Below are positions 10,500-33,828 of a stretch of 41,672 nucleotides of DNA, in pieces. How positions within the stretch are numbered: position 1 is the first letter of the stretch; each line of letters begins with the position of its first letter. The notes beneath the pieces are model-generated. The model was given only the letters and a program-made list of their open reading frames with translations. It had not been told where the DNA came from and made no database searches. The position numbers were made by a program, and so were the translations under genes. The DNA is from a bacterium (GTDB taxonomy: Bacteria > ARS69): the NCBI GenBank assembly GCA_025774805.1, contig JALGZR010000017.1, forward strand, positions 1 to 41,672, in the 5' to 3' direction.

Positions 10500-10557
10500 G
10501 CTCTCGGGAAGGGCACCGCGGCGACCCTTTCGCCGGAGGCCCCTCGATTCCTGCGAC

Positions 10558-13539
10558 CTAGCGCAGGAAGATGAGCTTCTTCGTCGCCTCGTTCTCCTCC
10601 GCCTCGAGACGGTAGAAGTAGACGCCGGAGCTCACCCTCCGGCCCTGATCGTTCCGTCCGTTCCAGTCCACGACATGCGCCCCCGCGTCGACGGGGCCGT
10701 TCACGAGCGTCCGCACGAGACGGCCCTGGACGTCGAACACCCGGAGCTTCGCCTCACCGGAACGCGAGACGCTGAAGCCGATCCGCGTGCTCCCCCCGAA
10801 GGGGTTCGGAGCGCCCTGGCGCAGCGCGAACTCGAGCCTCGCGCTCTCGCCGACCTCCACTCCGGTGGGGACGTCGTAGGGCATGATGTCGGAATCGCTC
10901 CGCGGCTGGATCTTGAATTCGGAGTACGCGTACTGCACGACGCCGCGGACGGAGATCGAGTCGCCGTTCGCCGGATCGTAGGTCAGCAGTCCTCCGATGC
11001 GCCCCTCGTCGTCGACGAGCGTCTCCTGCGCGTTCCGCGGTTCGGTGTTGTCGATGTAGTACTGGCCGTACGTGGCGTACGCGTTCGTGACCACCGCGCC
11101 GGTCATCGCGACGAGCACCCCTTCCCACGGTTCGCTGGTCGACGGGACCCCCGGTCCCGACGTGGGCAGGTCCGTGCTCTGGAGGTACCAGGCCGGGTGC
11201 GTCCCCAAGCCGCCGTAGTTCGTGTACGCCTCCGTGAAGTGCATGTCGATCTGCGTGGAGTTGTAGTACTCCACGACGTCCCCGCTGACGGCGACCGAGT
11301 CACCGACATCGATCAGGCCGGTGAGGTCTCCGCCCGAGTAGACCCAGATGCCGTGGTAGGCCGGCGAGAGCGTCCAGCTGTTCTGGATGGCGAAGATGTT
11401 GGTCGCGATCGTTCCCGGCGCCATGGTCACGATCCCCGCCACGTTCGTGGGGGTCCGGTCCCGGGCGTAGGTCGAGCTGTCGGTGCCGGCGATCATGTTG
11501 GACTGAATCTCGCTGATCGTCAGGAAGCCGACGCCGAGATCGTAGTCCCCGACGGCCGGAGCCCGTCCCTCGTATCCTTCGTCGTCCGTGGCTTCGATGT
11601 GGTAGTCGATCACGTCTCCGGGGCCGAACGAATTGCCGAGGGCGTGCTCATAGGAATCGCCGCCGACGTTGGTCATCGCCACGGAGTCCACGGCTCCCCC
11701 GTTGACCGACCAGAAGAGCTTGTAGCGCGTGAGCGTCCCGTTGTCGATGATGTCCGCGGAGATCACGATGTTGTCGCCCACTCCCGCCGGCGTCGGGGAG
11801 TAGCGGACCGAGGAGACGATCGGGGGACCCACGATGTCGAGGTTGTCGCGCGGCTCGAGCTTGCGCTCGTCCGACCCCTGAGTGGATCCGTTCCACGACC
11901 AGGTCACGATGCCCTCGATCGCGACCAGGGAGTCCCCGATGGTCGGGTTGTAGCTGTAGTATGCGAGATCGCCGATCTTCGCCGTTCCCGTTCCCGATCC
12001 GGTGTCGACGTCGGTGACCGACCACTGCCCGAAGCCGTCGTTGTCGTTGCTGACGTAGACGTCTTCCATGCGGACGTAGACGCCCTCGTATCTCTCCGGA
12101 CCGAGGGCTCCGGTCTGGATGCTTCCCGCGTTGATCGGGAGCGGAGTGGGAAGTGGCTTCCCGGTGCCGAGCTCCGTCACGTGATTATTGCCGAAGATCT
12201 GGAGCTGCGTGAGGTTGTAGTACTCTCCGACGACGCCCGCGACGCGCACGCTGTCACCTCGCTCGACCTCCACCTCGCCGAAGTAGTCGACGACGTGAAC
12301 GCCTCTCCAGAAGCCCGGGAGGTCCTGGATCGTGAAGGTGTGAATTGATCCGGTCGGGGGATTGAACGGGCCGGTCTCGGTCGTCACGATCCCCTCGACG
12401 TTCATCGCGTGGCCCACGAGGTACGGCCGCCCCGTGTCGGTCGGCGGCCCGTTCTGCACGCTGTAGATCGTCTGGACTCCCCAGCGGATCCGCCGCGTGG
12501 AGTAATCCGGGTACTTGCTGACCCCGACGCCGGCGGGGGTCCCCCCGTCGTAGGCGCGGACGAAGTACACGACCTCGACGCTGTCGGCCTGGTCCGGAAT
12601 CGACGCGCTGTACTGATCGAATCCCTGGTGGATCATGAGCATCGAGTCGGGAGCGGCGTTGCTGGGATCGTAGACGAGCCAGACCGCCGCCACGGAGTCC
12701 GGGTCCGTCGCGGTGATCACGACCCCGACCGTCTCTCCCACGAGCGGATCGAGGTTGTCCACGGCCAGCTCGTCGAGCGCCGGCCCGGTGTTCGCGACGT
12801 TCGCGGCGCCGGGAGTCGGAGTCCCCAGGTGGAGGTCGACGTTGCAGCTGTCCGTGTCGGAGGAGGAGGCGTCGCGGCCGAGCGACTGCCCCACGTCCGG
12901 ATACCCCGGATACGCGTCCGTGTTCGAGTTGCCCACGGCGCAGACGTCCGTGGCGCACGGCCCGGGGTCCTTCCACTCGATCGCGTCGATGAGATTGCCG
13001 CCGATTCCGTCGTAGAGGTAGAGCGCGTCGTACTGGTTGTACGCCGTGCAGGTCGCCCCGTAGCCGGACCCCGGGATCAGGCCGATCTGGTCGTCGTACG
13101 GGCTCTGCGTCCCGACGAAATCGAGGTTGTCGACGTTGGGGTCGTCGCTGTCGTGGTCGAAGACCGAATCGTACATCTCGAAGTCGGGATCGTCACCGAA
13201 CCGCTGGCGGAACCCGTCCTCGCTGTCGATGTCGACGGCCGCGGTGTCCTCCACGTCCTTCGCGATGACGAGATACTCTCCGGGGCCCAGAATCGGGGTC
13301 AAGGCGGGAATCCGCCAGGGGTCCTCGCCTCCGCAGGTCCCGTCGTACTCCGTGCCGGTGATGACCCAGCCGCTCACGTCCACGGAATCACCCTTGTTGT
13401 AGAGCTCGATGAACTCCGCCCCGTCGTACTCGGACCCGGGGTTCGGGAGAATCTCGTTGATCACCACCTGCCCGGCGGCGGGAGCGGCGGCTGCTGCTAC
13501 CAGGATCGGCAACAGGAAACCGTTGACCTTCAAGCGCAT
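10558..13539 (-). CDS. Large exported LTD / OB-fold protein with FlgD-type C-terminal domain
   Basis: A 993-aa surface or secreted protein. The signal peptide is residues 1-23 (ends PAAG). Next comes an LTD (VVINEILPNPGSEYDGAEFIE, to about 245) and an Ig-like domain (about 260-345). Two OB-fold modules follow, similar to those next to YhcR/ExeM-type extracellular nucleases: one near 380-475 (EGIVTTETGP, then GDSVRVAGVVGEYYNLTQL), one near 680-780 (AGIVTMAPG, then GDSVAVSGDVVEYYNSTQI). The last 90 residues are a FlgD-like Ig domain (RQGAPNPFGGSTRIGFSVS, then GVYFYRLEA) ending in KKLIFLR, as in cargo proteins of type IX-like secretion. No nuclease catalytic domain is present. A candidate promoter lies at 13674-13703. 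No SD is obvious before the ATG. Confidence 0.8.
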   Translation of the reverse strand: MRLKVNGFLLPILVAAAAAPAAGQVVINEILPNPGSEYDGAEFIELYNKGDSVDVSGWVITGTEYDGTCGGEDPWRIPALTPILGPGEYLVIAKDVEDTAAVDIDSEDGFRQRFGDDPDFEMYDSVFDHDSDDPNVDNLDFVGTQSPYDDQIGLIPGSGYGATCTAYNQYDALYLYDGIGGNLIDAIEWKDPGPCATDVCAVGNSNTDAYPGYPDVGQSLGRDASSSDTDSCNVDLHLGTPTPGAANVANTGPALDELAVDNLDPLVGETVGVVITATDPDSVAAVWLVYDPSNAAPDSMLMIHQGFDQYSASIPDQADSVEVVYFVRAYDGGTPAGVGVSKYPDYSTRRIRWGVQTIYSVQNGPPTDTGRPYLVGHAMNVEGIVTTETGPFNPPTGSIHTFTIQDLPGFWRGVHVVDYFGEVEVERGDSVRVAGVVGEYYNLTQLQIFGNNHVTELGTGKPLPTPLPINAGSIQTGALGPERYEGVYVRMEDVYVSNDNDGFGQWSVTDVDTGSGTGTAKIGDLAYYSYNPTIGDSLVAIEGIVTWSWNGSTQGSDERKLEPRDNLDIVGPPIVSSVRYSPTPAGVGDNIVISADIIDNGTLTRYKLFWSVNGGAVDSVAMTNVGGDSYEHALGNSFGPGDVIDYHIEATDDEGYEGRAPAVGDYDLGVGFLTISEIQSNMIAGTDSSTYARDRTPTNVAGIVTMAPGTIATNIFAIQNSWTLSPAYHGIWVYSGGDLTGLIDVGDSVAVSGDVVEYYNSTQIDMHFTEAYTNYGGLGTHPAWYLQSTDLPTSGPGVPSTSEPWEGVLVAMTGAVVTNAYATYGQYYIDNTEPRNAQETLVDDEGRIGGLLTYDPANGDSISVRGVVQYAYSEFKIQPRSDSDIMPYDVPTGVEVGESARLEFALRQGAPNPFGGSTRIGFSVSRSGEAKLRVFDVQGRLVRTLVNGPVDAGAHVVDWNGRNDQGRRVSSGVYFYRLEAEENEATKKLIFLR

Positions 13540-13703: not shown

Positions 13704-13747
13704 GAGACACGCAAATCCGCCGGGCGCGGTCCTGAAGCCGGCGGCTC

Positions 13748-13851
13748 GCCGCGGTTCTCACCCGGTTCGTCGCGAGGCGCGAATCGTCCTGTCGCGCGAG
13801 GAGAGGAGGTGCCCCGGCCCGAGAGGGGGCCGGGTAAGAGATGCAGGCTAG
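13748..13851 (+). repeat. Diverged palindromic element B4
   Basis: About 104 bp related to the B elements: the left part has GGTTCTCACCCGG then CGTCGCGAGGC, and the right end TGCAGGCTAG (13842-13851) is exact. The middle is shortened and has a different apical stem, CCCGGCCC (13813-13820) with GGGCCGGG (13827-13834). This stem could also end transcription of the six-gene operon. The TAG stop codon of the phosphatase gene (13848-13850) lies inside the right terminus. Confidence 0.6.
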
Positions 13852-15539
13852 GGCGCGGGGGAGCTCCGGGCGGCCCGTGCGAAGGCCGGATCGGGCTCGG
13901 AGGAGTCGTCTCGGAGCCAGCGCCCGTCGGTCTCGGGCGAGACCGGAGTGTGCCGGGTGACCCAGGCCTCCAACGCCTGGCGCATGGTCTTGCCCGTGTA
14001 GGTCTTCAGCGAGTCGGGCACGTCGGGGAGCATCGTCAGGTCGGCGTTTCCTTTGGCGAGGAAGTCGCTCGTCACCACGCGATACGTGGAGTCCGGATGC
14101 CAGATCCTCCCCTGGACCTCGAGATAGGTCACCCGATCGAAGTCGGGACGGGTCTTGTTGTAGACCACCTTCCCTCCGGCGATGTAGAGACCGTGATGGC
14201 TTCCGCTGATCCGGGTCTCGATCACTTCGCGCAGAAGGCGGCCCGACATCCGGAAGATCTCCATCCTGTTCCCGAAGGGAAGCACCTGGAAGATGTCCCG
14301 GGGAGTGATGGGCCCCGGACCGAGCTCGTCGCGGATTCCGCCCAGGTTCGTGAACGAGAAGTCCGCCCCCGTCTCCTCGAGCATCGCGTCGCAGACCGCG
14401 TTGCCCATGGGCGTCTCACCCGATCCCCCCCGGGTGAACTTCCCGGTCGCCCGGCCGATCACGCTGTCCATCCCCTCTTCCGCCGCCTCGACCTCCCGGC
14501 TGATGAAGTCCGCCATCTCGGGGTCGGGCCAGAACTGATCCTCGAAGAAGGTCACGAGATAGCCCCGCTCCGTCCAGAACTCGTAGTCCACGATCTGGTT
14601 CGTCTCGGTGTCGATGGAGAGGGTCACGATGCCGGCCCCGGACCCCCTTCCGTAGGTCTGGAAGAGGAGCGTGTGGGTGTTCGCCATGGCCCACGCGTCG
14701 TCGAAGCCCTTGTGGATGTGCCCGCAGAAGAACGCATCGATGCCCTCCACCGAATGGGCCACGTCCACGGCGAGCGACCGGGGCTCGTCGTCCGCGGGCC
14801 ACCCCGTGCGGTTCCGGTACTCGAGGTGCTCCTCGGGGTCGTACGGGATCCCCACGTGCCCCACCGCCAGGATGACGTCGACGTCCCGCGCGCGGAGGGC
14901 CCGGACCACGTCCCGCGCCACGGGGGCCATCGGAGCGAAGTCGAGTCCGGCGACGTTTGCCGGGAAGCTCATGTTTTCCGTCTCCGGGGTGATCAGCCCG
15001 AAGATCCCCACGCGGAGGTTCCCGAAGTCCTTGATGATCCAGGACTCGACCCAGTCGACGATTCTGCCCGTCTCTTCGCTGTGGAGATTCGCGGCCAATA
15101 CCGGGAACTCCGCCCTTTCGACGAGGGCCATGCAGTTCTCCTTCCCCTCGTCGAAATCGTGGTTTCCCAGAGCGAGAAAGTCGTAGCCGGCGGCGTTCAT
15201 GAAGTCGATCACCGCCCGTCCCTTCGTCAGCGTTCCGACCGGTGTGCCCTGGAAGAAGTCTCCGGCGTCCATCAGGAGGAAGTGACCCTCCCCCGCCTCG
15301 ACGTCCCGCCGCAGGCTCCTCAGCAGCGTGACCATCGATGCCGCCCCTCCGAGGCGCGGAGGGTACTCTCGGTTCATGTAGGTGGCGTCCGACGGATCGA
15401 TGCCCCCGTGGATGTCGTTCGTGTGGGTCACGGTGAGCTTCACGATCTCCGCGGACGCAGACCCCGAAGAGGACGCGGTGAGCGCCGCGAGAAGCGCGAT
15501 CGCGGTGAGTGCCCGACTGAGTACTCTGCGCCGCTTCAT
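13848..15539 (-). CDS. 5'-nucleotidase / metallophosphatase family protein
   Basis: A 563-aa exported phosphatase of the UshA/5'-nucleotidase family, expected to release phosphate from nucleotides outside the cytoplasm. Signal peptide: residues 1-30 (ends GSASA). The N-terminal calcineurin-like domain has all dimetal motifs in order: TNDIHGG near 40, MDAGDFFQGT near 90, GNHDFD near 125, then GHVG and CGHIH. The C-terminal substrate-binding domain starts near residue 355 (GRATGKFTRGGSGETPMGN) and includes FTNLGGIRDEL and VLPFGNRM. The start at 15539 (MKRRRVLSRAL) has GGAGG 8 nt upstream. That SD lies at the end of the upstream barrel gene, 4 nt away, so this is the last gene of the six-gene operon. 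Its substrate range (nucleotides versus other phosphoesters) is not readable. Confidence 0.92.
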   Translation of the reverse strand: MKRRRVLSRALTAIALLAALTASSSGSASAEIVKLTVTHTNDIHGGIDPSDATYMNREYPPRLGGAASMVTLLRSLRRDVEAGEGHFLLMDAGDFFQGTPVGTLTKGRAVIDFMNAAGYDFLALGNHDFDEGKENCMALVERAEFPVLAANLHSEETGRIVDWVESWIIKDFGNLRVGIFGLITPETENMSFPANVAGLDFAPMAPVARDVVRALRARDVDVILAVGHVGIPYDPEEHLEYRNRTGWPADDEPRSLAVDVAHSVEGIDAFFCGHIHKGFDDAWAMANTHTLLFQTYGRGSGAGIVTLSIDTETNQIVDYEFWTERGYLVTFFEDQFWPDPEMADFISREVEAAEEGMDSVIGRATGKFTRGGSGETPMGNAVCDAMLEETGADFSFTNLGGIRDELGPGPITPRDIFQVLPFGNRMEIFRMSGRLLREVIETRISGSHHGLYIAGGKVVYNKTRPDFDRVTYLEVQGRIWHPDSTYRVVTSDFLAKGNADLTMLPDVPDSLKTYTGKTMRQALEAWVTRHTPVSPETDGRWLRDDSSEPDPAFARAARSSPAP

Positions 15540-15543
15540 GATG

Positions 15544-16878
15544 TCATCCTCCGAAGGGGACGTGCGCATAGCTGAGCGTGACGAAGGCGGACGTGGCGTC
15601 CTCCTCGACGAGGTCGGTGCCGGTGCGGGTGCGACCGCCGTAGAGAGCGTCGTCGAAGAGATCCTCGAAACGGTACTCCCGGTGGGAGACCTCGAACGCG
15701 AGGTCCGCCCGGAGCGGCCCCTTTTCGATCCCCGCCCCGAACGTGAACGCCGTCGTCGTGATCTCGTCGTCCCGCGGTGACGGTCGGTAGAGCATTCCGA
15801 ATCGTGTCGGAAGCTGATTGTAGAATATGTGCTCGATCCCGACCCGGAAATCCCACACGTCGTCCAGGTCCAAACCCTCCCAGAGCTCGTGCTCGAAGTC
15901 CGACCACTGGATCCGCGTCGCGTCGAAGTGAAGCGACGTGCGGACCTTCGCGCGCGGCCGGTACGAGATGCCGAAGGCGAGCTCGGAGGGGTAGGTCACC
16001 TCCACGGACCCTCCGGCCGCGTCCGTGACCGCCGGCACCCCCGGGTGGGAGAGGTCCGCGAAGTCGCCCCCCCGGAAGAACGTCCCGTCCAGCGTCGTCT
16101 CCGACTTCCAGGTCGCGCCGATGTCGAGGCGATGGACGGGGGAGAGACACAGGCCGACCGCCGAGCGCTTCCCCGTGAGCGACCTCAGACGTACGGTGGA
16201 CGCTTCCGGGAGCCGGACCGGATCGACGGTCCCCTCCTTCATCCACCGGATTCGCTGCTCGAAGTCCTGCTCGCCGTCGAGGACCTGAAGGGCGAGCCCG
16301 ACGCCGAGCCACCGGAGAGGCGAGAACCCGGCACCGAAGGTCCAGGCATCGACCGACCCGTCCCCCTGCACCTCGTTGATCGCGAGGAGGGCGTCCCGAG
16401 GCCGGGTGAACGCGTCGTTCTCCCGGACCTCCTCCGAGTACTCGTACTGGAAGTCGCGGATCGGCGCCCGGGAGACGGCGATCCCGATCGGGCCGGGGAG
16501 GCCGTCCGACACGAAGGTGAGGGCGGCCCCGAAGCCCTGATCCCACTGGTACTCGTCGTTGAGGACGTAGATCGACTCGACGAGGTATCCGTCGAAGCTG
16601 TCGTAGGCGGGGATCGCTCGCGCCTCCTTGAGCTTGAGCACGCTGCCGCCCAGCGACACCACGCTCCCGTCCAGGCGCGCGAGCAGAGCCGGGTTCGTCG
16701 TGCCCGTGAACGCGCCGACCGGTTCGGCCGTTCGCGTCCTCCCCATCCCGACCGAACGGGCGTCGGGGACGACCGCCTCGTCGCCGGTCGCGAGCTCCAG
16801 GAACGTGAGGGCGAAGGCCTCCCCCGGCGCGGCGAGCAGAGCGGCCATCAGCAGTGTCATCAACGGTTCTCTTCTCAT
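15544..16878 (-). CDS. PorV/UPF0164-like outer-membrane barrel protein
   Basis: A 444-aa protein with a signal peptide (MTLLMAALLAAPGEAFA, starting a few residues in). The mature start, DARSVGMGRTRTAEPVGAF then TTNPALLA, is the hallmark of the PorV/UPF0164/FadL-like family, in which a small N-terminal helix plugs a beta-barrel. The rest alternates amphipathic strands, and it ends in a strand (SAFVTLSYAHVPFGG), although without the usual terminal Phe. PorV-type proteins shuttle type IX cargo or serve as porins; the role here is not determined. It is gene five of the operon, 28 nt after the HhH-barrel gene and 4 nt before the phosphatase gene. A second, smaller relative is encoded two genes upstream. 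Confidence 0.75.
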   Translation of the reverse strand: MRREPLMTLLMAALLAAPGEAFALTFLELATGDEAVVPDARSVGMGRTRTAEPVGAFTGTTNPALLARLDGSVVSLGGSVLKLKEARAIPAYDSFDGYLVESIYVLNDEYQWDQGFGAALTFVSDGLPGPIGIAVSRAPIRDFQYEYSEEVRENDAFTRPRDALLAINEVQGDGSVDAWTFGAGFSPLRWLGVGLALQVLDGEQDFEQRIRWMKEGTVDPVRLPEASTVRLRSLTGKRSAVGLCLSPVHRLDIGATWKSETTLDGTFFRGGDFADLSHPGVPAVTDAAGGSVEVTYPSELAFGISYRPRAKVRTSLHFDATRIQWSDFEHELWEGLDLDDVWDFRVGIEHIFYNQLPTRFGMLYRPSPRDDEITTTAFTFGAGIEKGPLRADLAFEVSHREYRFEDLFDDALYGGRTRTGTDLVEEDATSAFVTLSYAHVPFGG

Positions 16879-16906
16879 TGCGTCCGTCCTCTCTCCCGCA
16901 CCCGGC

Positions 16907-19417
16907 CTAGAAGGACCAATCCGCCTGGAGGCGGTAGTAGTTCGTGACCTCGCGGACGTCGTCGGCGTCGATCGTGTCGCCGACCTCTTCGTTGTACTGG
17001 CGGAGGTCGACGGCGGTGTTCCGGAGCTGGTTGTCCCGGACGTATCGCAGGCGAACCGTGAAGTCGTCCGACACCCGGTCGGTCACCTCGAACCAGGCCC
17101 GATATCCGCCCCGCCCGTCGGCGATGCGGAAGGTGTTCTTCTCGAAGAACCACCAAAACCCCTCGTACACCATGACCTCACCGTCGAACTTGAGCCGTCG
17201 GCTCTTCGAGTGGTGCGTGAACTTGCCGCTGAAGAGCTGTCCCGGTTGGGCGTTGTTGCCGAAGATCGGGTTGTCGCCGGTGGCATCGACCTCCCCCTGG
17301 AGGCGGCCCCGCGGGGGCCATTGCGTGTATGACGAGCCGTACCGGAACTCGAGCTCGTCGTATCGGGAGAGGCGGTACTCGAGCTGCCAGATCGTCTCCA
17401 CGTTGTTGAAGATCGTCGGATCCTGGAGGTTCTGGTGCTCCCGGTTCTGCCACTTGTGGCGGAGCTTGAGGCGGAGCGGGAACAGCAGCCGGTACTCGAG
17501 CCTCCCCACGAACCGGGAGTACTTGCTCATGTCGGCCTGCCGGCGCCAGGTGTCCCATTCGACGGTCGTGATGAAGGGCTCCGCCCACCGGTAGCGGGTG
17601 TTGACGTAGAAGCCGCGCTCCGCCTGCGGCTGGGCGGCGTTCTCGTAGGCCAGGCCGTAAATCGGATCCTGCAGTCGGAAGTTGTCCTCGAGAACCGTTC
17701 CCTTGAAGCGCTTGTAGTTCGAGAAGGAGCGCTGGTAGGGATTGTCGAACGCGACGTCGTAGTCCCGATAGACGGTCAGGAAGCTGAGGTTCTCGTGCTG
17801 GACGAACGCGTTCAGCACGAGGGCCTTGGGATCGTCCCCGAACTCGAGGACTCCCCCTCCCTTGTCGAGCTCCGCGTACTCCCCCTGGAGGGCCAGGTTG
17901 CCGTGGACCAATTGGAAGTCGCCCCCGTACACCCGGCGGAACTTCCCGTCGCTCTTGAAGGAGGAGAAGATCTCCCCGTCCTGGGCGACGATGTTGTCCT
18001 CGTCGTCGTCGGCGATGAGGGGATGCTTGTCTCCCGGATCGTGGGGATTCCACTTGGGATCGAAGAAGCGATCGTACCGGCTCTCGTATCCCCCCAGTCC
18101 CAGGTGGCACCCGGGAGCGAACGAGTAACGGACATTGCCGCCCCAGGTCTCCTCGTGGAGTTGATCCCGGATGGGACGGAGTCCGGCGGCGATGAGCTCG
18201 TCATTGTCGATTCGCGGCGTCATCCAGACCAAGAGGTTGACCGACCCGTCGTCGTTGAGGATGGCGTCCTTGTCGTCATCGGACCAGAAGCCGACCGCCC
18301 GCACCGGACCCCACGTCGCCTCGGCCGCCGCCCCGCGGAGCTGGGACTGCTCGGAGCGGGAGAGATCCCCGAGGACCCCGTCGTATCGCTTGGCGAAGTT
18401 GTAGCCGGACTTCCGTGAGCTGAAGAAGTCCGTGTTGTCCATGATGACGCCCTGGCCCCAGGACACGCTGTAGCTGCCGACGAAGAACTTGTCGATCCGC
18501 AGGCCTCCGGGGAGCCGCAGATCGCTCACCCCGACGAAGGCCTTCTTCGTGTCCAAAAGGTCCTCTTCCCCGAGCCGGCGGTTCGTCACCAGCCCCATCT
18601 GGAGGTGGTTCCCCCGGCGCAGTCGGAGCTTCTGGAAGACGGCCGGCCGGGGAGAGTCCAGACCCAGTCGGTCGTACCAGTTGTCGTTCGTCCCCTGTCC
18701 CCGGTCGCGGTCGGCTCGGAACAGATCGATGTGATCGGGGAAGTACGACGTCGTCTCGACACGGATCGAGTAGTTCCCGTGGATCCGGTCGTCCGCCTCC
18801 GGCTCCTCGTAGGTGACGAAGTTCCGGATGTTTGAGTACCCCCACCCGGAGAGCCCGGGGGTGCGCCGCAGCGCGCTCCGGTTCCCGATCTCGCCGACGC
18901 GGTCGCGGTGCCTCGCGATCGCGACCGCGTCGGTCGGTGCGGCGTTCTGGAGATTCTGGAGCTCGAGGATCGTGGCCTCGTTCACGTTCACCGGATCGAG
19001 CGCCAGGTCCTTGTAGAGCTCGACGAGAGACTCGTCTCGCCCCTCGGCGCCCTCCCACCATTCGAAGCGGTAGAAGAGATCGTCCTTCCGCTGCCGCTCG
19101 GGGGAGATCTTGATCTCTCCGAGGACCACGAGGGGGCGGATCCGGGCCAGGAGCTCGGGCGTCATTCCCTCGGCGTCGAGGAGGTCCGTGACGGTGCGGA
19201 ACCAGTCGACGTACTCGCGGTGCTCCCAGAGCCCCCGGGCCGCCTTCTCGGGAATCGGCAGCGCGAGAATCTCCTCGAGCGTGGCCCGGTTGAGGTCGAG
19301 ACGGTTCTCCTCGGCGCCGCCCGTGATCGGAGCGGCCAGGAGGACGAGAAGAAGACACGAGAGGATCCGTCGGACGGAGGCCCGCCGTCCTTTTCCGCAG
19401 AGGATCCCTGCCGCCAT
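16907..19417 (-). CDS. Helix-hairpin-helix domains fused to an outer-membrane beta-barrel
   Basis: An 836-aa exported protein. Residues 1-35 are a signal peptide (IRR-type N-region, core LSCLLLVLLAAPITGGA). Two ComEA-like helix-hairpin-helix modules follow: residues about 39-95 (RLDLNRATLEEILALP) and about 141-203 (DPVNVNEATILELQNL, then the HRDRVG turn). The remaining 600 or so residues are long amphipathic strands with many Asp/Asn/Tyr turns, ending in YYRLQADWSF, a typical barrel beta-signal with terminal Phe. HhH modules normally bind DNA non-specifically, so a DNA-handling outer-membrane protein is possible, but HhH motifs also mediate protein contacts. The ATG at 19417 has AGGAGGT 5 nt upstream; that SD overlaps the stop codon of the preceding gene, showing tight coupling. 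Confidence 0.78.
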   Translation of the reverse strand: MAAGILCGKGRRASVRRILSCLLLVLLAAPITGGAEENRLDLNRATLEEILALPIPEKAARGLWEHREYVDWFRTVTDLLDAEGMTPELLARIRPLVVLGEIKISPERQRKDDLFYRFEWWEGAEGRDESLVELYKDLALDPVNVNEATILELQNLQNAAPTDAVAIARHRDRVGEIGNRSALRRTPGLSGWGYSNIRNFVTYEEPEADDRIHGNYSIRVETTSYFPDHIDLFRADRDRGQGTNDNWYDRLGLDSPRPAVFQKLRLRRGNHLQMGLVTNRRLGEEDLLDTKKAFVGVSDLRLPGGLRIDKFFVGSYSVSWGQGVIMDNTDFFSSRKSGYNFAKRYDGVLGDLSRSEQSQLRGAAAEATWGPVRAVGFWSDDDKDAILNDDGSVNLLVWMTPRIDNDELIAAGLRPIRDQLHEETWGGNVRYSFAPGCHLGLGGYESRYDRFFDPKWNPHDPGDKHPLIADDDEDNIVAQDGEIFSSFKSDGKFRRVYGGDFQLVHGNLALQGEYAELDKGGGVLEFGDDPKALVLNAFVQHENLSFLTVYRDYDVAFDNPYQRSFSNYKRFKGTVLEDNFRLQDPIYGLAYENAAQPQAERGFYVNTRYRWAEPFITTVEWDTWRRQADMSKYSRFVGRLEYRLLFPLRLKLRHKWQNREHQNLQDPTIFNNVETIWQLEYRLSRYDELEFRYGSSYTQWPPRGRLQGEVDATGDNPIFGNNAQPGQLFSGKFTHHSKSRRLKFDGEVMVYEGFWWFFEKNTFRIADGRGGYRAWFEVTDRVSDDFTVRLRYVRDNQLRNTAVDLRQYNEEVGDTIDADDVREVTNYYRLQADWSF

Positions 19418-19427
19418 CGTCGACCTC

Positions 19428-20312
19428 CTAGAACCTCAGCCCCAGGCCGTAGTGGAACGTCCCGTCGAGGACCGGATGGTGGGTGTAGGTGAAGTCGACG
19501 TTGACCTTCGGGAGCAGGAGCCCCGCGCCGACGTCGAACAGGTTCGGCTCGGATTGGGCCCCGAATCGCAGCACCAGCGGGCTCGCGACCTGGAACTCGA
19601 TCCCCCCGTGGAACTGGACCTCCTGCCCGATCTGCTTCTCCACCTCCACCGCGGTGATCACGCCGTCGTAGGGACGGTAGGCCATGCCGCCGGAGATACG
19701 CTGCGGGAGCTCGGTCTCGACGGGATCACCGAGCGTGGGGTTGTTCACGTTCTCGAAGAAGACCCCGGCGGTCGTCCGGTCCCGCAATCTGGCCTGGAAG
19801 CCCACGTCGATCCCGATCGTGCTCTCCGACCCGAGGTCGATGTCCCCCACCGTCGGTGTGGGAAAGTCGAGGTTGTAGACGTTGACCGCGTACCCGAAAG
19901 TGAGGGCCGAGCTCAGGTCCTTCATGAGCTCGATTCCATGGGCCAGGGAGAACGTCCTCTCGATCATGAGAACCGCCCTCTCGTAGTCGACCCGGTAGTC
20001 GTGGTATCCGAGTCCGATCGTTCCCCAGGTCCCGGTCGGGTAGGCAATCGTGATGAGGTTCACCCGGTGGAACCCGTAGTTGAAGGGCTCGAACGCGGAC
20101 GCGTAGATATCGAGCGATTCGACGTTCACGAGTCCCGCCGGGTTGTAGTAGATCCCCGTCGCGTCCCCGGAGAGCCCCGCGTAGCAGCCGCCGAGACCGC
20201 GGGCCCGGGGACCGACCTCCAAGTCGTCGAAGATGGTGGCCCCGCCGGGCGACGCGAGCCCGAGTCCGAGGCCGATCGCCCCGAGGAGCACCGTCCCCCG
20301 CCACTTCTCCAT
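19428..20312 (-). CDS. PorV/PorQ-like outer-membrane barrel protein
   Basis: A 294-aa protein with a signal peptide (WRGTVLLGAIGLGLGLASPGGA). The mature N-terminus has the family signature PRARGLGGCYAGLSGDATGI followed by YYNPAGL, then about ten to fourteen amphipathic strands, ending HYGLGLRF with terminal Phe. This is a small outer-membrane barrel of the PorV/UPF0164 class; transport or cargo-handling role unknown. The ATG at 20312 is preceded directly by an in-frame GTG (20315); GGAGG lies 9-10 nt upstream of the ATG and 6-7 of the GTG, so either could start. It sits in the operon between the 1101-aa LTD protein gene and the HhH-barrel gene (10 nt to the latter). Confidence 0.78.
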   Translation of the reverse strand: MEKWRGTVLLGAIGLGLGLASPGGATIFDDLEVGPRARGLGGCYAGLSGDATGIYYNPAGLVNVESLDIYASAFEPFNYGFHRVNLITIAYPTGTWGTIGLGYHDYRVDYERAVLMIERTFSLAHGIELMKDLSSALTFGYAVNVYNLDFPTPTVGDIDLGSESTIGIDVGFQARLRDRTTAGVFFENVNNPTLGDPVETELPQRISGGMAYRPYDGVITAVEVEKQIGQEVQFHGGIEFQVASPLVLRFGAQSEPNLFDVGAGLLLPKVNVDFTYTHHPVLDGTFHYGLGLRF

Positions 20313-20355
20313 CACCGGGACACCTCCCGCGCTGTGTTCGCGTTTCGTCGTCTCT

Positions 20356-23300
20356 TCATCGCATCGACCTCCAACCCTCGAGTCGCGTTCCCACCACGAT
20401 CGGCGCGGAGTCGGTCTTCACGCTTCCTCCGTCGAGGGCTACGGCCCGGATGTGGCAGATGTACACGCCCGGCTCCACGGTCGAGCCGTGCTGGTCGACG
20501 CCGTTCCACCCGAGATCCAGGCGGCCCAGGCCGACCCCGTCGTAGAGCGTCGTCACCTTGCGGCCGACGCGATCGAAGATCTCCACGATCACCTCGCTTC
20601 GCGTCGGCGATCTCGTGGTGATTTGAATCTGCTCGCCGAGCTCCGGGGCGAGCACGCGCCGCTCGACCGCGACGATCGGGCCATCGCGCGTGAAGTCCCC
20701 GTCGACCTTGAAGATCGCATCCTGGTTCTGCGGCACGAGCTCGTATCCGGAGAAGTACGGCTCGGTTGCGTCGTACTGGGTGATGATCCCCGTCACGTCC
20801 AGGCGGTCGCCGACCGTGAATCGGGTCAGATCCAGGTCGGAGAAATTCTGGAAGACCTGGATGGGGCCGGATCCGTCGTCGACGTACGCGGCCAGGGAGT
20901 TCGAGTTGACCACCGTCCCCTCGACGTGAACCAGGGAACCCTCAAGCGTCTCGTCCCCCGCGTCTCCGGTGGCCACTTCGAGAGGCTCGGGACCCTCGAG
21001 ACCGCGCAGGAGGAGCCGGTAGCCGGTATCACCCTCGTCCACGTCGATCTCGGTGACCGCCCCGTTGCCTGAAGAGGCGGAGACGAACTCGACGACCCGC
21101 CCCCTGATCTGCACGAAGTCGTTCAGCCGAAGACCGTCCCGGCTGATCACGGGGCGTTCAAAGGCATAGCCCGCGGAATCGGAAGAAAAGAAGGAGAACA
21201 AGTTGACTCCGCAGCCGCCCGGATCCTGGATCCAGACGCTGAGCCGGTCGGTGGGGGGCAGTCCATTCGGGAGAGCCGGATCGATGTCTCCCAGGGTCAC
21301 GTACCCGACCACCGTGACGGGCTCGCCCACGAGGGGCGAGAACCCGGAGTCGTCGAACTCCTGAATCGCACAGATCGTGGCTGCCGGGGCATCGTCCTGA
21401 TCGATGGGGGGAACGAGGAAGGTGCCGACCGTTGGAGCACTGTTGCCCCCCCCCGGCCCGATCACGGGATCTTCGACGCCCGTCGCGGTGACCGTGGCCT
21501 CGACCCCGGGGGGAAGCTCCGCGGCGACCAGGAAGAAGTGCCGGCCGGCCTCGATCGGATCGGCGATGATGTCCGTGACCTCGACCGTCTCCCCGGTCGA
21601 CGGCACCTGGATCGTGTACCGGGTCGGGTCGAGCGCCGTCGCCTCGTTGACCGGCTCGTCGAACCGGATCTCGATTACCGTCGCGGAGAGGGCGGCCCCG
21701 AAGGAATCGACGAGGAGCAGCGGCGGCGCCGTGTCCCCCGGCACGTTCACCGATCCCGGCGTGGGATCGGACGAGGGAATGAGATCGGCTCGCGAGTCGT
21801 CGGTGTCGCGCGACGCCGCGTCCCGGCCCAGGGTGTGCCGGACTTTCGGAGCGCCCCAGAAGTAGGCGTCGTCGGGGCCGGTGATCCCGCCGTCGCACAG
21901 GTCGGTCGGGCACGGTCCCCTCTCCCGATACTCGATCGCGTCGACGACCGTTCCGGTCACGTCCTGCAGGACGACCAGCTCGGAGAAGGGCACGATCTTG
22001 CCCGGCCAGTCCGGAGCCTCGCACTGGCCCCCGTTCGTCTGGGCCCCCCCGAGCAACGCGATCTGGTCGTCCCTCGAAGTCGGATCCAGCAGGACCATGT
22101 TCTCCGTGACCGGGTCGTCCACGGACGGTGGCTCAGAACCCGCGTCGTGCATCTCGAATAGAAGAGAGGTCGCCGACGGGGAGAAGTCGCGGAAGTAGGC
22201 GAGGAACTCGCCGGCGTTTCGACAGACGACGGCGTATCCCCCGGGGGCGAGCACGGTTCCGACGGGGAACGCCCATCGTGCGTCGAGCGTGCAGTCGGCC
22301 TGGCGGCCGATGTCCGCCAGCGCCCAGCCGGAGACGTCGAGATCCTCGCCGGACCGGCTGAAGATCTCGACGTACTCCGCCCCCTCCCGTCCCTGGGACT
22401 GTGTGGTCGTCACGGGATAGACCTCGTTGATGACAACGTCCCCGGGCTCCGCATCCGTCACGACGAGGACCGTGGGGGACGCGGAGATCTCGGTGAGGGT
22501 TCCTCCCGCGGTCGCGGTCCGGGTGACGAAGACCGTGGGGCCCAGTGCGGCGGGGGAGGCGAGGGACCGGAGGGCGACCGTGCCCGGATTCGCCGCGGAC
22601 ACCGCGGCCCCGGAGACCTCCAGAACCCAGGAGGCTCCTTCGGGACGAAAGCTTTTCGTGGCTCCCGTGAAACCGTCGCCCCCGATCGAAAAGTCGCCCT
22701 GCGACTCCCAGGTCCACGTCTCGGGGATCGCGATCTCGATCTGTGCGAGAGTCGCCTCCTGCCCCGTGATCGTGAAGTCGAGCGTGAGGCCGTTCTGTCC
22801 CTGCGCGACGACCTCCGGGCGGACACGGACCAGACCCGAACCGTCGCCCGCAATGAGATCCGAGACCCCGGTCGGGTAGAGGTAGTGATCCGTTCCGGGG
22901 GCCGGACCGTTCTGCGCGACGAAGCCGACGAGATCGAACGGTCCCCCGGGCAGCGTCGCCCCGTCGAGGTCGGTGTCTTCGTCGACGTAGAGCCGCCCGA
23001 CGCTGACGCCGTTCGTGAAGGACACGAAGCCCGAGCTGCCGGCCGGCGGCCACTCTCCCGGATCGACGATCGAGACTCCGTTGATCCTTACTCGAGTGCC
23101 CTCCCAGGCCGCCCCGGTGTCTAGAAGATCCGTCATTCCGATCACGGTCGGATCGTCGACGACGCCCCCGCCCGGCGCGATCACGGTGATCGTGGGGGTT
23201 ATACCCGATAGGAAAGCGTATTCGAAGTCGACCGTTCTCGTCCCCCGGATCGGAGGGAGGTCCTGCGTCCGGACGACCACGGAATCGACCTCGACGATGT

Positions 23301-23661
23301 CGCCCGCGGACACAGTCGTCGGGACGCCTTCGGGATACGAGACGGCCAGCCCGCCCGTGCCGTCGGAGACGTAGAACCAGGTCGAGGGTCCGGCCCCGTC
23401 GAACGGATCGAGGGCGCCCGTCCCGGTCTGGGCCACGCCCCGGATGTTCACCGGGCTGAACTCGAGCGGACTCTCGCCGAAAGCCGTGTTCGCATTGATA
23501 TCGGAGATCGGGGTGAAGGTCCCGCGACCCGAAGGGAGCGTCGCACCCGCCTGTAGCCCGGCTCCGGACGCGGGCGTGAAGAGCGCTCCCCCCGCGAGGA
23601 GGAGGGTGGCACCCCGGAGCCGCAGAGGGCCCGGATCGAACCACGTCCGCCGGCGCGTCAT
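20356..23661 (-). CDS. Very large exported LTD / multi-OB-fold protein with FlgD-like C-terminus
   Basis: A 1101-aa surface or secreted protein. The signal region is residues 1-35 (core ATLLLAGGALFTPASG). Visible modules: an OB-fold-like domain near 45-140 (VNIRGVAQTGTG, then VSAGDIVEVDSVVV); a second OB-like stretch to about 285; a beta-domain to about 430; an LTD near 455-690 (DVVINEVYPV, then GAEYVEIFSRSGEDLDVSGW); an SbsA/Big_5-like Ig domain near 700-790 (TVIEIRFDEPVNEATALDP); two more OB-like domains (GEPVTVVGYVTL; VGDRLDVTGIITQYD); and a FlgD-like Ig domain at the end (VIVEIFDRVGRKVTTL, then PGVYICHIRA). No catalytic motif is seen. The ATG at 23661 overlaps the stop of the preceding LTD gene as ATGA. 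OB modules of this type usually accompany secreted nucleases. Confidence 0.78.
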   Translation of the reverse strand: MTRRRTWFDPGPLRLRGATLLLAGGALFTPASGAGLQAGATLPSGRGTFTPISDINANTAFGESPLEFSPVNIRGVAQTGTGALDPFDGAGPSTWFYVSDGTGGLAVSYPEGVPTTVSAGDIVEVDSVVVRTQDLPPIRGTRTVDFEYAFLSGITPTITVIAPGGGVVDDPTVIGMTDLLDTGAAWEGTRVRINGVSIVDPGEWPPAGSSGFVSFTNGVSVGRLYVDEDTDLDGATLPGGPFDLVGFVAQNGPAPGTDHYLYPTGVSDLIAGDGSGLVRVRPEVVAQGQNGLTLDFTITGQEATLAQIEIAIPETWTWESQGDFSIGGDGFTGATKSFRPEGASWVLEVSGAAVSAANPGTVALRSLASPAALGPTVFVTRTATAGGTLTEISASPTVLVVTDAEPGDVVINEVYPVTTTQSQGREGAEYVEIFSRSGEDLDVSGWALADIGRQADCTLDARWAFPVGTVLAPGGYAVVCRNAGEFLAYFRDFSPSATSLLFEMHDAGSEPPSVDDPVTENMVLLDPTSRDDQIALLGGAQTNGGQCEAPDWPGKIVPFSELVVLQDVTGTVVDAIEYRERGPCPTDLCDGGITGPDDAYFWGAPKVRHTLGRDAASRDTDDSRADLIPSSDPTPGSVNVPGDTAPPLLLVDSFGAALSATVIEIRFDEPVNEATALDPTRYTIQVPSTGETVEVTDIIADPIEAGRHFFLVAAELPPGVEATVTATGVEDPVIGPGGGNSAPTVGTFLVPPIDQDDAPAATICAIQEFDDSGFSPLVGEPVTVVGYVTLGDIDPALPNGLPPTDRLSVWIQDPGGCGVNLFSFFSSDSAGYAFERPVISRDGLRLNDFVQIRGRVVEFVSASSGNGAVTEIDVDEGDTGYRLLLRGLEGPEPLEVATGDAGDETLEGSLVHVEGTVVNSNSLAAYVDDGSGPIQVFQNFSDLDLTRFTVGDRLDVTGIITQYDATEPYFSGYELVPQNQDAIFKVDGDFTRDGPIVAVERRVLAPELGEQIQITTRSPTRSEVIVEIFDRVGRKVTTLYDGVGLGRLDLGWNGVDQHGSTVEPGVYICHIRAVALDGGSVKTDSAPIVVGTRLEGWRSMR

Positions 23662-25181
23662 CGGGACGTCCCCTCCGTCGACAGGCCGACGACGATCGGC
23701 GCGACGGTCTCGTCTCCCGTGGCGGTGTTTGCCAGGTGCAAGTAGTAGATTCCGGCCGGCAACCGCTGCCGGAGAGGATCCCGGCCGTCCCACGTGAGAA
23801 CGGCGAGTCCCCCGGGAGGAATCGGCTCCTCGGCGAGCACGAACAGCTCCCGGCCCGTGGGATCGAAGAGCCGCAGGAGGACGTTCTGGCCCTGAGGGCC
23901 AGCGTAGGTGATCTCGATGGATCCGTCGAGCTGCGGGGCGTACGGACGGCGGGGAACCGTGAGCCGCAACTCGGTCGACGGTCGATAGCCCCGGAAGAAC
24001 GCCCGACTCCCGAACACGAGAACGACGGAGAGATCATCGCTCCGGATGCCCTCGGCCTGAACCTCGTAGAGGGCGCCCGGCATCTGGTCCCCGGTCTCCA
24101 GCCGGACCTCGCTGCCGCCTCCGGCCCTGCGGGCCGCTCGAACCGGGAGCCGGACGATCCCCGTCTGGATTTGTCCCCCCCCTGTCTGCACTTGCTGAAT
24201 CAAGTAGTTATCCAGATCGGCGGCGGTCACCGGGTCCAGATCCCGAGAGAAGGTCAGGATCACTTCGTTGGAACCACTGGCGGCTGCGGAAAGAAGAGCC
24301 GGGGGTCCGAACTCGCCCGGCGAGCCGATCGACGGCGGGGAGCTGTCCATCCAGGTCGAAGAGTAGTTCTCACTCGTCTCGTCGTGTCCGGAAATCCCGT
24401 TGCCGTCGACCGTTCTCTCCGACCCTTCCGCGAAGTCGATGCGGGATATCGTCGTGCGCTCCTCGTGCGCGTAAGGTGAGCTGGTGGACGCCAGATCCTG
24501 TTGCGCCGGAGGCGTATCCTCCCGGTAGGCGGACGGGATGTCGTCCTCGTCGGGGCCGTCGATCTCCACGCCCGTCTTGTCGGGAGAGAGGTTTACGTGG
24601 GTGGACGTCTCGTCGCTGTACTGCACCATATCCACGTCCTGCACGAGATCGCTGAGACCGTCCCAGTGGAAGAGGATGATCTCCTCGCGGCCGTTGGTGA
24701 AGCCGACGTTCGCCTGGATGAACGGCCGGCCGATCAGCTCCCACCCCGGGTCCACCATGTCCGCAACGCCGTCCTCGTCCCCATCCTGATTCAGCTCGAA
24801 GTCGATCGGCACGTTTTCGACTACGTCCGACCAATACGCGGTGAAATCAGCGTCGTCGTGCAGGGAGATGACGAGCGTCTGTCCCGGCCGGATCGAAGCT
24901 CCCGCCGGAAACCGAACCACGAAGTCGTAGGGAAACGCGGGGTCGGGCTGAAGGCCCCCATTCACAATCGTCCAGTAGAAGTCGTGGTCGGTGCCGAACC
25001 GGTCCACGTGGTGGAAGTCGGTCACGTAGTAGTTGGAGAGGTCGACGGTCTCTTCGGTCGGGTTGAAGATCTCGAAGAACTCCGCCTCGGTGGGCGAGAC
25101 CGCGAACTCCGTGATCAGGACGTGTTCGGTCGCCCGGACCCCTCCGGCTGCGCCCAGGATTCCCCCCATAAGCCCGATCAT
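23658..25181 (-). CDS. Exported LTD protein with FlgD-like C-terminus, first gene of surface operon
   Basis: About 507 aa from the ATG at 25181. An N-terminal hydrophobic segment (MIGLMGGILGAAGGVRA) looks like a signal peptide but lacks a basic N-region. Upstream in-frame GTG (25256) or TTG codons could add one; none has a good SD, so the N-terminus is uncertain. The LTD follows (EHVLITEFAVSPTEAEFFE, then DLSNYYVTDF) with Asp-rich loops (QDGDEDGVADMVDPG). The middle part contains an SbsA-like Ig domain (NEVILTFSRDLDPVTAADLD). The C-terminal 95 residues form a FlgD-like Ig domain (VLLRLFDPTGRELFVL, then PAGIYYLHLA). A good promoter at 25276-25304 reads into it. Its stop overlaps the next start by four bases. 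Confidence 0.75.
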   Translation of the reverse strand: MIGLMGGILGAAGGVRATEHVLITEFAVSPTEAEFFEIFNPTEETVDLSNYYVTDFHHVDRFGTDHDFYWTIVNGGLQPDPAFPYDFVVRFPAGASIRPGQTLVISLHDDADFTAYWSDVVENVPIDFELNQDGDEDGVADMVDPGWELIGRPFIQANVGFTNGREEIILFHWDGLSDLVQDVDMVQYSDETSTHVNLSPDKTGVEIDGPDEDDIPSAYREDTPPAQQDLASTSSPYAHEERTTISRIDFAEGSERTVDGNGISGHDETSENYSSTWMDSSPPSIGSPGEFGPPALLSAAASGSNEVILTFSRDLDPVTAADLDNYLIQQVQTGGGQIQTGIVRLPVRAARRAGGGSEVRLETGDQMPGALYEVQAEGIRSDDLSVVLVFGSRAFFRGYRPSTELRLTVPRRPYAPQLDGSIEITYAGPQGQNVLLRLFDPTGRELFVLAEEPIPPGGLAVLTWDGRDPLRQRLPAGIYYLHLANTATGDETVAPIVVGLSTEGTSR

Positions 25182-25275
25182 GAAGAGTGCGGGAAAGGAT
25201 GGAGAACGGGGAGACGGTTCCAACGCAGGGTCCGGCTGAATGGTGCGGCGCGACACCGGCGGCGGCGAGACGACC

Positions 25276-25304
25276 CGTTTATCACGCCAACCGGAAGACG
25301 TCAA
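25276..25304 (-). promoter_or_regulatory. Sigma70-type promoter of the six-gene surface operon
   Basis: On the minus strand TTGACG (25304-25299), a 17-bp spacer and TAAACG (25281-25276). It lies in the 148-bp gap between the sugar-binding lipoprotein gene and the first LTD gene. This shows that an open frame starting with the TTG at 25304 is not the true gene start. Confidence 0.6.
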
Positions 25305-25329
25305 CCCAACCCGCGTTCCTCCTGGACGG

Positions 25330-26619
25330 TCAGGCGCCGGCCGCGAGCTCCGCGTCGGCCTTTTCGGCCGCGAGCCGAAGCGCCTCCACCGGCTCTACGC
25401 GACCGCGCAGCACCGGCTCGATGGCCTCCCGCTCGAGGATGTTACGGCCCGCATACCACCCGCGCGCCTTCGGCTGGGGAAGAGCGCGTTCGAGCTGCTC
25501 GTAGGCCTCCCGCAGGCCGGGATTGGAGTCGAGCCGGGCCCGCATCGCCGGATGCTCCATGGCGGATCGCCTCACCGGCAGATAGCCGGTCTCCGCCCCC
25601 CATCGCGCCGTCTGATCGGGGTCGGTGAACCACCGGACGAACCGCCAGGCCTCCGCCTCGCGCTCCGGGGTCGAGGCGAAGATCACGACCTCGGTCCCGG
25701 CGAGGAGCTGGGTGTCGAGCTTGCCCGCGGGGAGCGGAGCGATCCCCAGGTCGAACGAGAACTTCCCCTCCATGAAGGCGAGACTGACCGAGCTTCCCTC
25801 GATCATCCCGACCCTCCCGGCCAGAAACTCGTTCTGGTACTCGAACCCCTGGCTGAGCAGGCACGATCCGTCCCGGAGCAGAAGGTCGGTCATGAACTCG
25901 AGCGCCTCGACGCCCTCGGCCGAGTCGAACGCGACCGCGGTCTCGTCCTCGTTCAGAAGCCGCCCCCCGTTCTGAACGATCAAGTTCTCGAAGACGGAGA
26001 CCGTGATCTGGCTCGCGAGTCCGTACTGCTCGGGATTCCCGTCCCCGTCCCGATCGACCGTCAGCTTCCGGGCGATCTCGCGGTACTCCGACCACGTGCG
26101 GGGCGGAAGGTCGGGGTCGAGACCGCTCGCCCGAAACAGGTCCCGGTTCGTGTAGAGACACCGCACCGACTTGTTGAAGGGAAAGGCCCACAGCTCCCCC
26201 CCCTGGGTCGAGGTCGTAAGGAAGATCGGATGGATGTCTTCCAGACTCTCCGGAGACAGGCCTTCCGGCCCCTCGAGAAACCGGGAGAGGGGCACCACCG
26301 ATCCGTTGCTCACGAGGTTCGCCGTCCACGCCTCGTAGCACTGGGCGATGTCGGGGGGGCCGCCCGCGGCCACCGCGGCCATGATCTTCTGGGACAGCGC
26401 CTGGTACCGACCCATGGAGACGCACTCCAGAGGGTCGTTCCGTTCGGCGTTGTAGTCGGAGACCAGCGCGTCGAGAGAGCGACCGAGGGGCCCGCCCATG
26501 GCGTGCCAGAAGCGGATGGGCCCCCGGTCGGCATTCTCCCCTCCCCCGCCGCAGGAGACGAGTCCGAGGAGAGCGCCGGCGAGGAGCGGAGACGAGGGCG
26601 TTCCGGAACGACGTATCAC
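25330..26619 (-). CDS. Extracellular solute-binding lipoprotein of a carbohydrate ABC importer (family 1)
   Basis: A 429-aa substrate-binding protein of the UgpB/MalE type, lipid-anchored and facing the periplasm. The signal peptide ends in the lipobox ...GLVSC with Cys23, followed by a glycine linker. The mature protein starts with the family pattern PIRFWHAMGGPLG and contains AAGGPPDIAQCYE, the GELWAFPFNKSVRCLYTN hinge segment, FNKSV and DGDGNPEQYGLA, all usual for sugar or glycerol-phosphate binding proteins. Start is a GTG at 26619 with an AAGGGG SD overlapping the stop codon of the permease gene, only 4 nt away. It is the third gene of the importer operon; ligand unknown. Confidence 0.92.
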   Translation of the reverse strand: MIRRSGTPSSPLLAGALLGLVSCGGGGENADRGPIRFWHAMGGPLGRSLDALVSDYNAERNDPLECVSMGRYQALSQKIMAAVAAGGPPDIAQCYEAWTANLVSNGSVVPLSRFLEGPEGLSPESLEDIHPIFLTTSTQGGELWAFPFNKSVRCLYTNRDLFRASGLDPDLPPRTWSEYREIARKLTVDRDGDGNPEQYGLASQITVSVFENLIVQNGGRLLNEDETAVAFDSAEGVEALEFMTDLLLRDGSCLLSQGFEYQNEFLAGRVGMIEGSSVSLAFMEGKFSFDLGIAPLPAGKLDTQLLAGTEVVIFASTPEREAEAWRFVRWFTDPDQTARWGAETGYLPVRRSAMEHPAMRARLDSNPGLREAYEQLERALPQPKARGWYAGRNILEREAIEPVLRGRVEPVEALRLAAEKADAELAAGA

Positions 26620-26623
26620 GATG

Positions 26624-27478: not shown

Positions 27479-27537
27479 CTCTCACCCGCCTCTGCTGCGG
27501 CGGCGGGTCGCCGCGCCGGATGAGGACTGCAGGCTAG
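27470..27537 (-). repeat. Internally deleted B-type element (B3')
   Basis: A 68-bp remnant: the left end GGCCTGCATCTCTCACC (27470-27486) followed by CGCCTCTGCTGCG matches the reverse complement of the right end of a full B element. Its right end TGCAGGCTAG (27528-27537) is the B terminus. It overlaps the left end of element B3 by the shared CTAG. The start codon of the MalG-type permease lies inside it. Confidence 0.7.
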
Positions 27538-27715
27538 CCTGCATTTCTCACCAGGCTCGTCGCGAGGCCGCGGACAGGCGTATATGGCGAGGAGATGGGG
27601 TGCTTTCGCCCGAGGCGGGGCCGTAGCCCCGTCGCAGGGCGGAAGCGCGCCAGCGACGAAGTCAGGCGCGGCTTTGCCGCGGACGCAGCAGAGGCGGGTG
27701 AGATATGCAGGCTAG
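27534..27715 (+). repeat. Palindromic intergenic element B3
   Basis: A 182-bp element bounded by CTAGCCTGCA (27534-27543) and TGCAGGCTAG (27706-27715), an exact inverted repeat. The apical hairpin CGGGGC/GCCCCG is at 27616-27621/27626-27631. It separates two permease genes of one importer. The TAG stop codon of the upstream permease (27712-27714) lies inside its right end. Confidence 0.9.
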
Positions 27716-28692: not shown

Positions 28693-28738
28693 TGGATCCT
28701 CGGATCGGTCGGTGCGATCGGGGTCGTGGAGGGGGCGC

Positions 28739-28767
28739 AGGATAGGAGAGGCCCCCCGGAGTGTCAA
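28739..28767 (-). promoter_or_regulatory. Sigma70-type promoter of the sugar importer operon
   Basis: On the minus strand consensus TTGACA (28767-28762), a 17-bp spacer and TATCCT (28744-28739). It reads into the MalF-type permease gene with a leader of about 40 nt. Confidence 0.75.
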
Positions 28768-33826: not shown

Positions 33827-33828
33827 CG

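Follow-up and report, generated by a model that had tools for sequence, protein, structure and literature searches.

A conserved, apparently undescribed cassette of LTD/OB surface proteins, a PorV-type barrel and an HhH-bearing, predicted 24-strand barrel in FCB-type bacteria

Contig JALGZR010000017.1 of assembly GCA_025774805.1 (a bacterium of the ARS69 lineage) was analysed over a stretch of 41,672 nt, referred to here as the window, in which six open reading frames, A to F, are arranged in tandem on the minus strand between 25304 and 13848, without inner stops (Table 1). An earlier note on this DNA had taken them for a surface operon that may bind and process extracellular DNA, with an HhH protein as the DNA-binding part; re-reading of the open reading frames showed its six same-strand genes and all five junctions (A-B −4, B-C 43, C-D 10, D-E 28 and E-F 4 nt) to be exact. 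A Pfam search of the cassette recovers LTD in both A and B, a weak OB match in the latter, two HHH_3 stretches in D, and Metallophos together with 5_nucleotid_C in F. The cassette is real and broadly conserved, and it is apparently undescribed; a literature search, with most subscription papers and all preprints outside its coverage, gave no account of an LTD/PorV/HhH-barrel cassette.

Conservation was assessed through gene D, which is matched in 21 of 98 searched genomes (labelled G; G000 is the genome of the window) at E ≤ 1e-3, 11 of these matches being long. A profile built from the 11 D proteins retrieved 226 relatives in genome contigs, and neighbourhood counts refer to the best 80 of the 226 (loci labelled L), some of which share contigs with genomes G001, G003, G004, G029 and G077. 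According to their record titles the relatives belong to Calditrichota, Krumholzibacteriota, Marinimicrobia, Zixibacteria, Eisenbacteria, Gemmatimonadota, Latescibacterota, KSB1 and others, and the order LTD - C - D - E - F is kept across Calditrichota, Krumholzibacteriota, Marinimicrobia, Zixibacteria, Eisenbacteria, Latescibacterota and others. By profile search, C directly precedes D in 72 of 73 testable loci (71 before correction of L049, first scored as lacking C owing to a long open frame), E directly follows D in 66 of 72, and E is followed by F within 3 kb in 51 of 56. The surface operon of the earlier note thus stands as a gene set conserved over several phyla. The proteins encoded before C (n = 52) carry LTD in 39 cases, an OB-fold in 29, FlgD_ig in 21 and DUF5689 in five; nuclease families were absent from those listed for these 52. 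Their alignment was derived from a set of 61 by leaving out nine short proteins and L051 and adding one, L071 being replaced by a longer frame. In the alignment of D, the sequence of the window stands beside those of 68 of the 80 loci; an in-frame stop excluded L084, L091 and L093, and nine more were omitted as partial or unchosen. Housekeeping neighbours (RsgA, AAA, glycosyltransferases, ParA, Sulfatase, PTS_EIIA_2) are inconstant across the loci, and antisense frames in the GC-rich DNA confounded a de novo clustering of the neighbours. A link of D to phages was dropped, a tblastn search with D against phage records being empty.

Table 1. Genes and features of the window discussed in the text
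Feature	Position	Strand	Description
Gene A	23658..25304	−	548 aa from TTG; putative exported LTD protein, FlgD-like C-terminal domain; LTD 4.3e-9 (Pfam)
Gene B	20356..23661	−	1101 aa; putative exported OB/LTD/OB protein, FlgD-like C-terminal domain
Gene C	19428..20312	−	294 aa; PorV-family 14-strand outer-membrane barrel
Gene D	16907..19417	−	836 aa; HhH domain and predicted 24-strand outer-membrane barrel; HHH_3 1e-13
D, residues 40-205	18803..19300	−	two HhH modules without canonical GxG; predicted periplasmic
Gene E	15544..16878	−	444 aa; FadL/BamG-type barrel
Gene F	13848..15539	−	563 aa; exported UshA-type phosphatase; metal ligands intact, presumed ribose-binding Asp replaced
Gene G	10558..13539	−	LTD/OB protein, type IX secretion type-A C-terminal domain; after F in this lineage
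MBL lipoprotein	30999..32354	−	ComEC-type metallo-beta-lactamase (MBL) domain; candidate phosphodiesterase/nuclease partner
ABC importer genes	25330..28767	−	solute-binding protein and two permeases; nearest characterised family Ugp, below cut-offs

The description of C as a PorV-like barrel is borne out by both profile and structure model. The C family profile has the PorV of the type IX secretion system (T9SS), 6h3i_F, as its sole significant match in the PDB (2.3e-8); the model (pLDDT 92) has 14 strands in a FadL-like barrel and superposes on PorV 8gl6_F, which has a bound cargo tail, with a Z score of 32.2 over 271 residues at a root-mean-square deviation (rmsd) of 2.5, FadL reaching 30.8. 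PorV ranks first for C in profile, Foldseek and VIA comparisons. Against NCBIfam PorV_fam (NF033709) C scores 42.9 bits and E 31.8 bits, both under the cut-off of 90. E, which had been taken for a second PorV-like barrel, is of the FadL/BamG type instead: its best matches are Toluene_X/FadL in Pfam and BamG in NCBIfam, and its family profile finds the FadL-type chains of the Bacteroidota BAM complex (E 4e-19), then TodX/TbuX, and PorV more weakly. With 43.5 bits E does not reach the BamG cut-off (NF053685, 250), and the best-scoring BamG locus lies outside the cassette in eight of the ten genomes with a match (exceptions G002 and G003), so that E was rejected as the BamG of the genome in most cases.

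The reading of D as an HhH-barrel is supported by an HHH_3 match of 1e-13 and a model (pLDDT 81, pTM 0.79) that shows a predicted barrel of 24 strands besides the HhH domain. The loops after odd strands are mostly long and the turns after even strands have 2–5 residues, and this asymmetry places the HhH domain, by prediction, in the periplasm. In structural alignments, which covered the barrel, FimD/PapC ushers rank best, at Z up to 14.7 and, over 375 residues, an rmsd of 4.8; since ordinary porins also reach Z 12–14, the match of the model says "large barrel" more than "usher". Usher Pfam families are absent from D, and the window proteins scanned include neither chaperone nor pilin families. 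Distant barrels with a single HhH (L042:6123-11019 and L046:7109-11233) have a PorV-like gene directly upstream and are each followed by an Amidase_3 gene, and L047:5286-11412 has four consecutive frames, one PorV-like, one with HhH, one for a ComEC-type MBL and a further one that is D-like, with a FlgD-tailed protein upstream.

The assignment of A and B as LTD/FlgD-type exported proteins stands for LTD; their FlgD_ig matches in Pfam are sub-threshold, yet the FlgD-like motif is family-wide, being found at the C-terminal end of 48 of the 52 upstream proteins. The gene cluster continues past F, where, beyond a gap of 308 nt, genes follow for the further LTD/OB protein G, a short protein and another one that has two LTD stretches. 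G meets TIGR04183, the T9SS type-A tail, with 37.4 bits (cut-off 23), and partly matches the ExeM/NucH model NF033681. Matches of the OB modules (E 2e-4 to 7e-3) are to RPA2-like chains and, in DNase-family chains, to the N-terminal part. A, B and their relatives end in a conserved APxVVGTxL-type tail and G in KKLIFLR; the former is possibly a tail class read by a private PorV-like C. The SprA translocon is encoded in the genome of the window (G000:C50, 509.9 bits including neighbours in frame, cut-off 200); every one of the 11 genomes with a long D match has an SprA match, against 22 of the 87 others, among which genomes with distant D-like matches were counted (Fisher 1.7e-6, uncorrected for kinship).

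F has the domains expected of the 5'-nucleotidase proposed earlier, Metallophos and 5_nucleotid_C, and, depending on position, between 45 of 50 and 51 of 52 sequences retain its metal-ligand residues. An aromatic position, which we take to be the nucleoside-stacking one, is F/Y in 49 of 49 sequences. That part of the assignment holds; the nucleoside specificity is less secure, as the position of the GGDG-motif Asp, presumably the ribose-binding Asp of UshA, is replaced.

A nuclease, which according to the earlier note had to come from elsewhere, was sought among several families. A, B and G have no nuclease domain among their Pfam matches. ExeM/NucH has no match in G000 and one weak match across the 11 genomes, and Endonuclease_1, present in 4 of 11, is absent from G000; both were therefore ruled out as the missing enzyme. 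The search did provide a candidate in a ComEC-type MBL gene, which sits between an alkaline phosphatase gene (32387-34297) and the ABC permease region. Its product is a predicted lipoprotein with a THVHEDH motif, matches PDB 9ic4 in its ComEC-like MBL domain (1.1e-16) and, weakly, teichoic-acid phosphorylcholine esterase. The MBL domain of ComEC has been shown elsewhere to be a nuclease (PMC8579336). Relatives of the MBL gene are found between E and F in L072 and L086; in L041 (6664-7260, minus strand) the same slot holds a secreted PLD-type protein with an HKD-like motif, and in L040 CAP-domain frames instead.

The promoter that had been proposed at 25276-25304 was rejected. A consensus scan of 9400-27600 returned 0 promoter-like sites (shuffle mean 1.0), and although the stretch reads TTGACG-17-TAAACG, it is more likely a translation start, because the TTG of its −35 box opens the frame of gene A with AGGAGG upstream. 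The solute-binding protein gene of an ABC importer ends at 25330, only 25 nt from this TTG, and the unit therefore probably starts upstream of A and includes importer genes; one permease, the solute-binding protein and A to F may form a single unit, with gaps of 4 and 25 nt ahead of the junctions given above. The solute-binding gene is seen in 11 of the 80 loci. Further upstream, both strands of 28761-31018 carry open frames; the one at 29358-30893 on the minus strand matches no family in a Pfam search but recurs in L031, L033 and L035. The operon at 34695-40583, thought earlier to import nucleosides, encodes an ABC importer with a Bmp/PnrA-like binding protein (Pfam), which leaves that role plausible; among NCBIfam models, those named "putative B6 transporter" fit best, though none reaches its cut-off.

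We favour, with a probability of about 0.4, a receptor/channel cassette in the outer membrane of FCB-type bacteria that has a coupling to type IX secretion. A and B would reach the cell exterior through T9SS by means of their FlgD-like C-terminal domains and, by analogy to the binding of cargo C-terminal domains by PorV, may be held at the surface by a PorV-type barrel of their own, C. There they would lie above D, a wide barrel of 24 strands; its N-terminal, periplasm-facing HhH domain may be a gate or docking module rather than a DNA ratchet. E would serve as an accessory barrel of the FadL type, and F, an exported phosphatase, would carry out the last step on the substrate. A phosphodiester polymer is the most likely substrate, with nucleic acid as the first candidate; this substrate, the contact with D and the direction of transport we infer. 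In favour of the cassette so read are the gene order kept across phyla, the FlgD-like ends of the upstream proteins, the SprA match in all genomes with long D matches, the PorV likeness of C by profile and model, the strand number and loop asymmetry of D, the excess of basic over acidic residues at its inward-facing strand positions, the conserved metal ligands of F, the MBL or PLD genes between E and F in three relatives together with the MBL gene upstream in the window, and the matches of the OB modules. In a far-reaching form, which we regard as doubtful, FCB phyla outside Bacteroidota would possess an outer-membrane machine for nucleic-acid uptake and digestion that does not depend on type IV pili: an OB/LTD receptor exported by T9SS would feed polynucleotide into the 24-strand pore D, with its positive lumen and HhH-derived periplasmic gate, and exchangeable nucleases of the ComEC-type MBL or PLD type, together with the phosphatase, would complete digestion.

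Several observations weigh against such a receptor and channel. The surface proteins are strongly acidic: A, B and G have isoelectric points of 4.1–4.2 (B 4.1), the last 498 aa of A carry a net charge of −51, and 50 of the 52 upstream proteins of relatives are not net positive. The extracellular loops of D are net acidic as well, and the favourable average of 30 K/R versus 18 D/E at its inward-facing strand positions is an estimate of lumen charge from sequence parity, not from coordinates. Canonical GxG is found in 0/68, 0/69 and 0/69 sequences at three hairpins of D, and the fourth offers an off-register GWG only, in 8 of 69. In F the residue aligned with the GGDG-motif Asp is Ala, mostly Ser in relatives. 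The MBL gene is matched in only 5 of the 11 genomes, once per genome, and is on the contig of the cassette in three of these (G000, G001, G004) and on another contig in G002 and G072. Finally, E is missing in six loci and F in five despite room for them; both therefore appear dispensable, and LTD-C-D is the core of the cassette.

This constancy of cargo, C and D would also fit a dedicated export and anchoring unit. There D, as a translocon of usher-like or small SprA-like type, would work with the PorV-type C to secrete the LTD/OB proteins and display them, while the roles of E and F would lie in envelope assembly or modification. Pilus ushers are the closest folds of D, C resembles a protein that sits on the T9SS translocon, E resembles an outer-membrane assembly subunit, BamG, and pairs of a PorV-like protein and an HhH-barrel recur in the distant loci L042 and L046. 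However, SprA is already matched in every one of the 11 D-carrying genomes, barrel-to-barrel Z scores are unspecific, as the porins show, and the phosphatase and the nuclease-type neighbours are left unexplained; we consider such a unit somewhat unlikely. The version of the earlier note, in which the HhH part of D holds DNA at the surface as ComEA does, could draw on the relation of the D modules to ComEA, on LTD/OB modules like those of ExeM-type nucleases and on ComEC, found in 10 of 11 genomes. It has nonetheless become quite improbable. Canonical GxG is absent from D and its 68 relatives, whereas stand-alone ComEA-like HhH proteins of the same genomes keep GIG at most hairpins; the HhH domain is acidic (net charge −8) like the surface proteins; each of the 11 genomes has a separate HHH_3 gene with a better match than D; D stays below the cut-offs of NCBIfam comE (36.5 bits, cut-off 152) and TIGR00426 (32.9 bits, cut-off 53.1); and the ExeM/NucH and Endonuclease_1 enzymes are missing from G000. 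The proposed DNA-gripping part of D thus lacks the usual DNA-contact residues, an outcome that the earlier note had itself named as refuting its proposal, and a DNA ratchet is disfavoured.

Organophosphates other than DNA (glycerophosphodiesters, teichoic-acid-like polymers, phospholipids) might be the substrate as well, MBL or PLD cutting the diester, F and the alkaline phosphatase removing phosphate, E taking the lipid and the Ugp-like importer the headgroup. Ugp as the nearest family for all three ABC genes, the alkaline phosphatase gene close by, the phosphorylcholine esterase match of the MBL protein, the FadL type of E and the changed nucleoside pocket of F are in line with this; but the ABC genes occur in just 11 of 80 loci and all their scores are under cut-offs, and we know of no case in which LTD/OB modules serve such substrates, which makes this explanation quite improbable. 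The DNA reading as a whole is weakened because canonical GxG is missing, the surface proteins are acidic and the presumed ribose-binding Asp of the phosphatase is gone, and partly rescued because a ComEC-type MBL lipoprotein is encoded upstream and MBL or PLD genes lie inside the cassette in three relatives; the DNA interpretation may hold, but it loses the HhH argument and gains a nuclease-type neighbour.

A five-gene cassette in fixed order in several poorly cultured phyla points to a basic envelope function still without a name, and a private PorV with a 24-strand HhH barrel would be a new partner set for T9SS-type secretion. Cultured members of these phyla (e.g. Caldithrix) would allow testing; if the substrate is nucleic acid, the cassette bears on how such bacteria feed on environmental DNA.

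Among known systems, a parallel to natural transformation in Riemerella anatipestifer is suggestive. There, an outer-membrane barrel, the DUF5689 protein encoded next to it and an HhH protein are all essential for transformation, and an amidase mutant of the same screen was also lowered in transformation (PMC8459023). DUF5689 also occurs in five of the 52 LTD/OB proteins here; the likeness is one of gene description, and DUF5689 is unspecific. It was dropped as a mark of DNA uptake because the DUF5689 gene of G066 lies in a SusCD-type locus. With ComEA and TIGR00426 proteins, D shares HhH modules by sequence, but it is devoid of canonical GxG, is fused to a 24-strand barrel and coexists with a separate ComEA-like gene. 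The ExeM/NucH extracellular nucleases have LTD/OB modules in common with A, B and G, of which G partly matches their model, but a catalytic endonuclease domain is lacking in all three. D has the 24-strand barrel of the FimD/PapC pilus ushers, its best structural match, at about 7–10% identity, and bears an HhH domain instead. BamG of F. johnsoniae and B. thetaiotaomicron belongs to the BAM-complex FadL-type chains that the E profile matches best, although E remains below the curated cut-off and the best locus lies mostly elsewhere in the genome. With the T9SS PorV of F. johnsoniae (SprA-PorV, PDB 6h3i and 8gl6), finally, C shares its profile match and its top structural match, and putative cargo with FlgD-like C-terminal domains is encoded beside it; C is shorter (294 aa) and below the NCBIfam cut-offs, the putative cargo of A/B type ends in an APxVVGTxL-type stretch in contrast to the KKLIFLR tail of G, and the partner barrel is D here, but SprA in T9SS.

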